This document shows, in pieces, positions 8,701 through 9,703 of a DNA stretch of 43,363 nucleotides. The stretch's first letter is position 1, and each line of letters begins with the position of its first letter. The DNA comes from Candidatus Sungiibacteriota bacterium (GTDB taxonomy: Bacteria > Patescibacteriota > Minisyncoccia > Sungbacterales > HO2-52-23), in contig JACPMG010000023.1 in NCBI GenBank assembly GCA_016186095.1, forward strand, positions 1-43,363, given 5' to 3'. A model generated the notes under the pieces. The model did not search any database and had not been told where the DNA came from. It saw nothing but the letters and a program-made list of their open reading frames with translations. Made by a program: the position numbers and the translations under genes.

Positions 8701-8721
8701 GAACTCGGGCCGCGGAGAATC
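8701..8721 (-). repeat. Degenerate copy of the tRNA-Pro 3' end (attachment-site-like)
   Basis: On the minus strand this 21-mer matches the 3' end of tRNA-Pro plus the following GTTC (9629-9649) at 18 of 21 positions, in the same orientation. The endonuclease gene lies between the two copies. This is the arrangement left by elements that insert at a tRNA 3' end. Confidence 0.6.
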
Positions 8722-9565
8722 ACTTAACTTTTAAAATTGTTGCCAGTTGATTTTGAGGAAATAGATGTTTAGGATAGATTGCCGTTAATGGCAACTTGTA
8801 TTTTTTAACTAATCTTAACTTCTTTTTGAGAAGCGCATCATATTTCTTTACTTCGCCACTAAGACCAAAGAATTCAATCCAATTGCCATCAGTTACAAAA
8901 TCTGTCGTTAGCCTTTGTCGACCGGGATACGGCACGCTTCTTTTATGTTTTATATTTTTCTCGTAAAGCCAGTCGTCTATAATTTTTTCAGAAAAAGAGT
9001 TGCATTTGTGTCCGTCTTTGGATAAATATTGTAGGGCGAACATTACCGGATTTGATTTATACCCCGCTGCTTCTATCGCTTTATTCCAGCTACCAAATCT
9101 AAGTCTAGCGGCTTTGGCGCTTAAAAATTCTCTTTTTAAGGGGATACGCCCATGTTTTAGGTAAAATTCTTTAATTTTCCTCATAACTTCTTCGGCTGGC
9201 ATGATTTGGGATATGTCTTTGCATTTGCGTGAGCAGTAAGAACCATTTTCTTTAAACTCCCGCGCACAATATAAACACTTTCTTATGACCGCTCCCCTTT
9301 TAGGATATTTAGAGTTATTTACTATAGCCGCACAAGCTTGAGAACAATACAAAGCCGCACCAAGTATTTCATGGGGAGATCTCGTAAAAACCTTGTCGCA
9401 ACTCGGCCTAAAGCACGTGAACTTCTGCTGTTTATTTCGAGCTGTTTTTTGACATTCCAAAGAACAATAAGTTTTCCATCCAAACTTCTTCACCTCGTTA
9501 ATTCTCCCTTGATTTCTATGCACCCTCTTTTTACAGAAATAGCATTTTAAAGCGAGTATCCCCAT
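8720..9565 (-). CDS. Zinc-finger plus PD-(D/E)XK endonuclease, homing-type
   Basis: 281 residues. Three zinc knuckles open the protein: Cys8/11 with Cys34/38, Cys51/56 with Cys74/78, and Cys97/100 with Cys111/115. Residues 125-170 form a helical module ending FGSWNKAIEAAG, the repeat found with homing endonucleases. The C-terminus is a PD-(D/E)XK nuclease: SEKIIDDWLYEKNI (192-205), Asp222 in TDFV, Glu231 in EFFGL, Lys near 248, then AIYPKHL. It should make a double-strand or nicking cut at a site recognised by the N-terminal modules. No partner methylase is present. Its position between a tRNA gene and a copy of the tRNA end suggests a small selfish element. Confidence 0.8.
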   Translation of the reverse strand: MGILALKCYFCKKRVHRNQGRINEVKKFGWKTYCSLECQKTARNKQQKFTCFRPSCDKVFTRSPHEILGAALYCSQACAAIVNNSKYPKRGAVIRKCLYCAREFKENGSYCSRKCKDISQIMPAEEVMRKIKEFYLKHGRIPLKREFLSAKAARLRFGSWNKAIEAAGYKSNPVMFALQYLSKDGHKCNSFSEKIIDDWLYEKNIKHKRSVPYPGRQRLTTDFVTDGNWIEFFGLSGEVKKYDALLKKKLRLVKKYKLPLTAIYPKHLFPQNQLATILKVK

Positions 9566-9587
9566 ACTCTAATTTTAGCATTTCCTC

Positions 9588-9624
9588 GACCCAAAAACCG
9601 CCTGACTAAGGTGGTTTTTGGGTC
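9588..9624. terminator. Symmetrical hairpin between tRNA-Pro and the nuclease gene
   Basis: GACCCAAAAACCGCC pairs with GGTGGTTTTTGGGTC (one G-U) around a 7-nt loop. It lies just 3' of the tRNA on the minus strand and would stop read-through into the nuclease gene; there is no long external T-tract, so a role as a bidirectional barrier or repeat is also possible. Confidence 0.6.
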
Positions 9625-9632
9625 ATATGAAC

Positions 9633-9703
9633 TCGGGCTGCCGGGAATCGAACCCGGGCTAAATCGACCCCATCGACTCGTGCTACCTCTACACCACAGC
9701 CCG
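9633..9703 (-). tRNA. tRNA-Pro (anticodon GGG)
   Basis: On the minus strand: acceptor CGGGCTG pairs with CAGCCCG; D-arm GTG...CAC with AGAGGTAG loop region; anticodon stem AGTCG/CGATT around loop ATGGGGT, giving anticodon GGG; four-base variable region; T-arm CCGGG-TTCGATT-CCCGG; discriminator A. CCA is not encoded. A GC-rich dyad (9700-9733) overlaps its 5' end. Confidence 0.9.

Follow-up and report, generated by a model that had tools for sequence, protein, structure and literature searches.

A scattered nuclease family beside tRNA-Pro genes of Patescibacteria suggests a selfish gene that spreads by cutting its neighbouring tRNA gene

Background

Why does a nuclease gene lie between a tRNA gene and a second, degenerate copy of the 3' end of the same tRNA? 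The question is raised by a locus in the window, i.e. the whole stretch of 43,363 nucleotides analysed here, which is contig 13 of a 680-kb genome that is 92% complete and whose relatives are Patescibacteria. The initial annotation had proposed for this locus a minimal mobile unit of about 0.93 kb that is bounded by a direct repeat of the tRNA end, uses the tRNA gene as its site and does without an integrase. Most of what is known about free-standing homing endonucleases comes from phages and organelles.

Methods

A homologue search in 383 genomes of the class gave matches in 30 genomes, about 25 of which have a clear homologue of the window protein or of its C-terminal part. Further homologues were obtained by a profile search in 379 genomes of the phylum, and a named-genome collection contributed three loci, including Roizmanbacteria and another Patescibacteria record. 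In the locus numbering of the comparisons, the window locus is L034.

The structural model of the nuclease was built with AlphaFold from a 17-row alignment (mean pLDDT 84, pTM 0.49). Under a simple position null, which assumed 700 kb with two target tRNA genes and a tolerance of 600 nt, a single placement of this kind comes out at a probability of about 0.006.

Results

The features of the locus are listed in Table 1. The tRNA-Pro(GGG) gene is single copy, being the sole Pro(GGG) among the 37 tRNA genes of the genome at the completeness given above. The nuclease gene lies downstream on the same strand, 67 nt beyond the tRNA 3' end, and it is situated outside any intron or intein, as the tRNA beside the ORF is intact and the Rfam scan detected no intron. 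Two genes separate rpmB from the tRNA; an apparent additional rpmB match (L034/L088, window about 8103-8258) was dismissed as a chance match within another ORF. The single hairpin of the initial annotation has to be amended to two, one at 9588-9624 and the other at 8664-8698, beyond the duplicate. The former is perhaps the terminator of the present tRNA. The latter, which is terminator-like on the plus strand, might perhaps be the original one.

Table 1. Positions of the features of the tRNA-Pro(GGG) locus in the window
Feature	Position	Strand	Basis
tRNA-Pro(GGG), proposed target gene	9633-9703	minus	ARAGORN and Infernal (Rfam RF00005)
Nuclease gene, 281 aa	8720-9565	minus	ORF listing and homologues
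Region of the three zinc knuckles (Cys 8-115), which presumably binds DNA	9221-9544	minus	conserved Cys
PF18780 HNH_repeat (homing endonuclease associated repeat), residues 123-170	9056-9199	minus	E 1.7e-11
Nuclease domain, residues 190-281, I-Bth0305I/Vsr-like fold	8723-8998	minus	AlphaFold model, VIA-align, alignment
Hairpin (arms of 16 bp) separating the tRNA 3' end from the nuclease start	9588-9624		inverted repeat I2
Degenerate tRNA-Pro 3'-end duplicate, 18/21, overlapping the nuclease stop codon	8701-8721	minus	repeat and shuffle tests
Hairpin directly past the tRNA-end duplicate	8664-8698		inverted repeat I1
rpmB (L28), class-conserved upstream neighbour of tRNA-Pro(GGG)	12237-12452	minus	ORF listing and loci of relatives

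The domain composition read from the letters (three zinc knuckles, a homing-endonuclease-associated repeat and a PD-(D/E)XK-type domain) was borne out by the six cysteine pairs, the PF18780 match and the fold of the C-terminal domain. In detail, the pairs C8/C11, C34/C38, C51/C56, C74/C78, C97/C100 and C111/C115 make up the three knuckles; in the 17 aligned homologues all but one of the 12 cysteines are invariant. In the same alignment E193, D222, E231 and K249 of the nuclease domain are invariant and likely form the active site. No relative was found when the PDB was searched by sequence. VIA-align superposed the modelled C-terminal domain on the structure 3r3p of I-Bth0305I, a homing endonuclease of the EDxHD family (PMC3943268), with a Z of 9.9 over 88 residues, an rmsd of 2.7 and 16% identity. 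Structure alignment of the model with Vsr (1cw0) and TnsA gave Z values of 8.7 and 8.6, and because both score within about 1 of 3r3p, the fold is one common to the wider Vsr/PD-(D/E)XK group. The full Foldseek list consisted mostly of zinc-finger chains with poor superposition, so that the C-terminal match alone was trusted. According to the model, then, I-Bth0305I would be the nearest solved fold to the catalytic domain of the window nuclease; the likeness to the EDxHD family is one of predicted fold, and the window protein adds the N-terminal zinc knuckles and PF18780.

When 31 loci were analysed together, all 26 evaluable homologues adjoined a tRNA-Pro gene, 17 of them tRNA-Pro(GGG) and 9 tRNA-Pro(CGG), and sites of other kinds did not turn up among these 26 loci from across the phylum. 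The five remaining loci have no readable tRNA: in one (G034) a run of N lies exactly at the expected tRNA, and the others are at or near a contig end. As a partial control, multi-copy PF18780 proteins that do not contain this nuclease domain (L100-L105, L110, L111, L115) were considered, and of about nine distinct loci one was near a tRNA, a tRNA-Val. No relative was confirmed on viral contigs. The family is patchily distributed, with about 25 clear homologues in the 383 class genomes, and broken-looking copies occur (L045, L054, L091, L096).

Versions of the locus that do not contain the nuclease are abundant. Out of 90 fetched rpmB loci of the class, 60 have a tRNA-Pro(GGG) nearby and no nuclease, and in 49 of these 60 the tRNA is on the same strand as rpmB, at a median gap of 81 nt. 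In occupied rpmB loci the nuclease, differing by lineage, either follows the tRNA (L037, L040, L041, L064) or is placed between rpmB and the tRNA (L048, L050, L052, L094).

The best pair for comparison are the congeners G243 (occupied) and G101 (free), with flanks that are 79-92% identical. In G101 a conserved hairpin sequence follows 2 nt after the tRNA, whereas G243 has this sequence only after the nuclease and 430 nt more. The pair thus differs by more than the insertion, namely in the tRNA itself and in the about 430 nt downstream of the nuclease. A small membrane-protein-like ORF (L086, about 2393-2755) is located between the nuclease and the conserved hairpin of G243 and is absent from G101; it may be part of the same insertion. 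In another congeneric pair, G207 and G256, shared blocks on the rpmB side and the ndk side bracket one occupied and one free tRNA-Pro(GGG).

Three points of the initial annotation can be judged from these comparisons. The search for other tRNA-flanked copies that it had proposed gave 26 out of 26, and relatives at unrelated loci, which it had named as evidence to the contrary, did not appear. Empty sites, for which it had likewise asked, are represented by the 60 nuclease-free loci. Its view that the tRNA gene serves as the site of the nuclease gene, no integrase being involved, therefore appears well founded as far as gene placement goes.

Three arrangements of nuclease and tRNA were distinguished. 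In the window and most GGG loci the nuclease is 3' of the tRNA on the same strand; in four CGG loci it is downstream on the opposite strand; and in some GGG loci, as well as in L091, it is upstream and divergent. The GGG loci of the last kind mostly encode types with a helix-turn-helix-like N terminus, which replaces the zinc knuckles in some GGG-linked nucleases. The CGG-linked nucleases group as a single clade (support 100/99) in a tree built from the C-terminal region, and this clade also contains an unresolved row. The host families f1 and f10 were found both inside and outside the clade, and one genome, G010, carries a GGG-type nuclease at its tRNA-Pro(GGG) and a CGG-type nuclease at its tRNA-Pro(CGG). 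As the CGG clade extends across several host families and both types coexist in G010, the nucleases sort by target tRNA and not by host. In one CGG locus (L043, 1396-1458) the nuclease frame runs on in antisense direction and enters the 3' half of the adjoining tRNA-Pro(CGG).

The recurrence of the tRNA 3'-end 21-mer in direct orientation with three mismatches, on which the initial annotation had built its unit, is real. The segments 9629-9649 and 8701-8721 match at 18 of 21 positions and constitute the longest direct repeat of the region, and when the stretch behind the stop codon was dinucleotide-shuffled 1000 times, no shuffle scored as high as the match at 8701-8721, nor did any of the 147 other windows of the locus. 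At the stop codon, the remnant was significant at three loci, namely those of the window (shuffle p <0.001), L064 (JAHIOM010000015.1; <0.001) and L041 (0.006), and L065 is marginal (shuffle p 0.069; 4 of 355 control windows). The remnant is therefore present in at most 4 of the 11 loci with a same-strand upstream tRNA-Pro, three solid and one marginal, and the other seven loci tested showed none. A second tRNA end was not found in the pair G243/G101 either. A remnant in the tRNA-Gln-linked L060 looked tRNA-like by eye and was rejected as not significant. The pairing partner expected for the remnant of L064 (CAGCCCGACCA) is an acceptor strand reading CGGGCTG and not the CGGGGTG of the intact tRNA. 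The 3'-end duplicate is thus real but not general in the family, and as a general rule the unit of 0.93 kb bounded by such a repeat cannot be maintained, given its low frequency in these loci and the results for two further families described below.

Two other nuclease families, both combining zinc knuckles with HNH, are linked to other tRNA genes. Among the best 30 loci of the first, 26 are followed on the same strand, within 50 nt, by a tRNA-His(GTG), and another 3 lie upstream of a tRNA-Ser(TGA). Among the best 30 loci of the second, 28 have a tRNA-Thr (CGT or TGT) on one side at a distance of at most 130 nt, and one more has it at 226 nt (29/30). In the latter family (L279-L308), 14 loci are about 12 nt upstream of a tRNA-Thr(CGT) and others are beside tRNA-Thr(TGT), on either side; in several loci of the His family (L309-L338) the predicted ORF enters the tRNA-His gene by about 14 nt. 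Compared with control windows, remnants of the tRNA 5' end did not exceed chance in either the His family (combined p 0.88) or the Thr family (combined p 0.76). Since no displaced tRNA ends were found in these two families, the duplicate does not belong to the mechanism in general. Zinc knuckles together with a different PD-(D/E)XK-like domain (TPDFYLPDYGLYVEIKNF) were observed in L062 (G141:C5) and L063 (G038:C37), the nuclease gene of L062 being located 3' of a tRNA-Thr(TGT).

The tRNA genes themselves were also compared. The tRNA-Pro(GGG) genes of G243 and G101 have an identity of 0.71 despite their similar flanks; however, congeneric pairs not linked to the nuclease differ as much (0.55-0.85). 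In same-anticodon comparisons across G243 and G101 the distribution is bimodal, with the tRNA genes 56-81% identical in 25 of 37 comparisons and 91-100% identical in 12, and the flanks are mostly 75-96% identical and syntenic (e.g. L214/L215, L219/L220, L223/L234). The idea that nuclease-linked tRNAs are foreign cassettes was rejected, as unlinked pairs and most unlinked tRNAs of G243/G101 diverge equally. Since the divergence of tRNAs between congeners is not specific to the nuclease-linked ones, it was not used as evidence. Changes in the T-loop were found in 8 of 19 linked and 8 of 54 unlinked GGG genes (p 0.02, uncorrected for kinship), an enrichment too weak for an argument on escape, and a nearest-neighbour test of the linked GGG tRNAs was negative (2/19).

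Discussion

Taken together, the placement at a single target, the nuclease-free alleles, the patchiness, the broken copies and the homing-endonuclease fold point to free-standing homing endonuclease genes. We consider it probable that the nucleases are such genes, each locked to a single tRNA isoacceptor gene, with cleavage and homing proposed on the strength of gene positions and predicted fold. In this proposal, the zinc knuckles and the helical repeat would bind the tRNA-Pro(GGG) gene and the I-Bth0305I/Vsr-like domain would cleave the DNA of a nuclease-free copy at a presumed cut site. The break would then be repaired from a nuclease-bearing copy, and this repair-driven spread would insert the nuclease gene flush with the tRNA, which would leave the tRNA undisrupted and make both intron and integrase unnecessary. 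Upon entry from the 3' side, the incoming DNA would sometimes bring a new tRNA 3' end, and the old tail with its terminator would be pushed downstream, where it would now be seen as 8701-8721. The present tRNA would presumably escape re-cutting by some means.

A comparable geometry is known from the mORFs of Glomus and Allomyces mitochondria, in which an endonuclease ORF inserts itself where a host gene ends; the gene thereby acquires a foreign 3' end, and its native one comes to lie further downstream (PMC3630166). The mORFs resemble the window locus in the position of the ORF at the 3' end of a gene and in the displaced native end, but they occupy protein-coding mitochondrial genes and encode LAGLIDADG or GIY-YIG enzymes, whereas here a bacterial tRNA gene is concerned and the displaced end occurs in some loci only. 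Because of this geometry, with a new 3' end supplied and the native one left behind, 8701-8721 is by analogy better read as the displaced tail of an earlier native tRNA than as an att site of the integrase type. It could still be argued that the 21-mers are att-like and that a site-specific mini-element is integrated and excised by an integrase from elsewhere, since a direct repeat of a tRNA 3' end flanks a small gene in the manner of tRNA-integrating elements. We regard this as quite improbable: the element has no integrase of its own and the nuclease gene is alone between the repeats, att-like repeats are missing in most relatives (at most 4 of the 11 same-strand loci) and from G243/G101, and the orientation of the nuclease and its side of the tRNA vary, which is not what a fixed att-like pair would give.

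The main rival to homing is a host or accessory gene that acts with the adjacent tRNA, e.g. a nuclease toxin or an anti-phage effector guarded or sensed via the tRNA, in which case the linkage would be functional and the tRNA gene not a target. The same strand and near-zero spacing in many loci would also suit a co-transcribed gene with a tRNA-related function, and some predicted His- and Thr-linked ORFs extend a few nucleotides into the tRNA gene. Nevertheless, we consider such a gene unlikely, as in the Pro family the orientation is convergent, divergent or head-to-tail, presence is patchy with broken copies, the fold is that of a DNA nuclease near a homing endonuclease and no partner gene was seen. 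Least probable of all, and hardly to be expected, is that the nuclease was left behind by a degraded group I intron of the tRNA. Group I introns are known to harbour homing endonucleases with this class of fold (PMC3943268) and to invade bacterial tRNA genes (PMC3984707), but the Rfam scan of 8400-10000 at a relaxed threshold gave the tRNA only and no intron, and the nucleases are outside the mature tRNA boundaries on either side.

Among known systems, the nearest functional parallel to the proposed homing genes is SegB of phages T4 and T6, a free-standing GIY-YIG homing endonuclease encoded beside tRNA genes that cuts within them and is co-localised with tRNAs across many phages, a preference for particular isotypes not being reported (PMC13096335). 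The shared trait is a free-standing nuclease gene beside tRNA genes, with cutting presumed in our case; unlike SegB, the genes described here are on bacterial chromosomes, have Vsr-like or HNH folds and keep to strict isoacceptor partners. An earlier account of tRNA-linked nucleases in Patescibacteria was not found in our literature search, most subscription papers being outside its reach.

A wider system may also be imagined in which the Patescibacteria harbour one selfish nuclease per isoacceptor gene (Pro-GGG, Pro-CGG, Thr-CGT, Thr-TGT, His, Ser), each of which would cleave its partner tRNA gene in relatives that have no nuclease and swap in a cut-resistant version, so that an arms race of tRNA genes against homing endonucleases would drive the unusual divergence of tRNA genes between congeners. 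We hold this extension to be doubtful, if somewhat less so than the rivals above, and a nuclease travelling with its own resistant tRNA was considered and is not our conclusion.

Conclusion

A scattered family that is found beside one particular kind of tRNA gene suggests, from sequence and gene order, a selfish gene that cuts this tRNA gene in order to spread, and not an ordinary integrating element. If this is true, one of the largest bacterial radiations would possess chromosomal nuclease families that each keep close to one isoacceptor gene as their partner, which would illustrate how genes of this kind establish themselves next to essential genes with no need of an intron. The families would also be a source of sequence-specific tRNA-gene cutters, and they might help to account for the rapid tRNA-gene turnover that is seen when congeners with such reduced genomes are compared.
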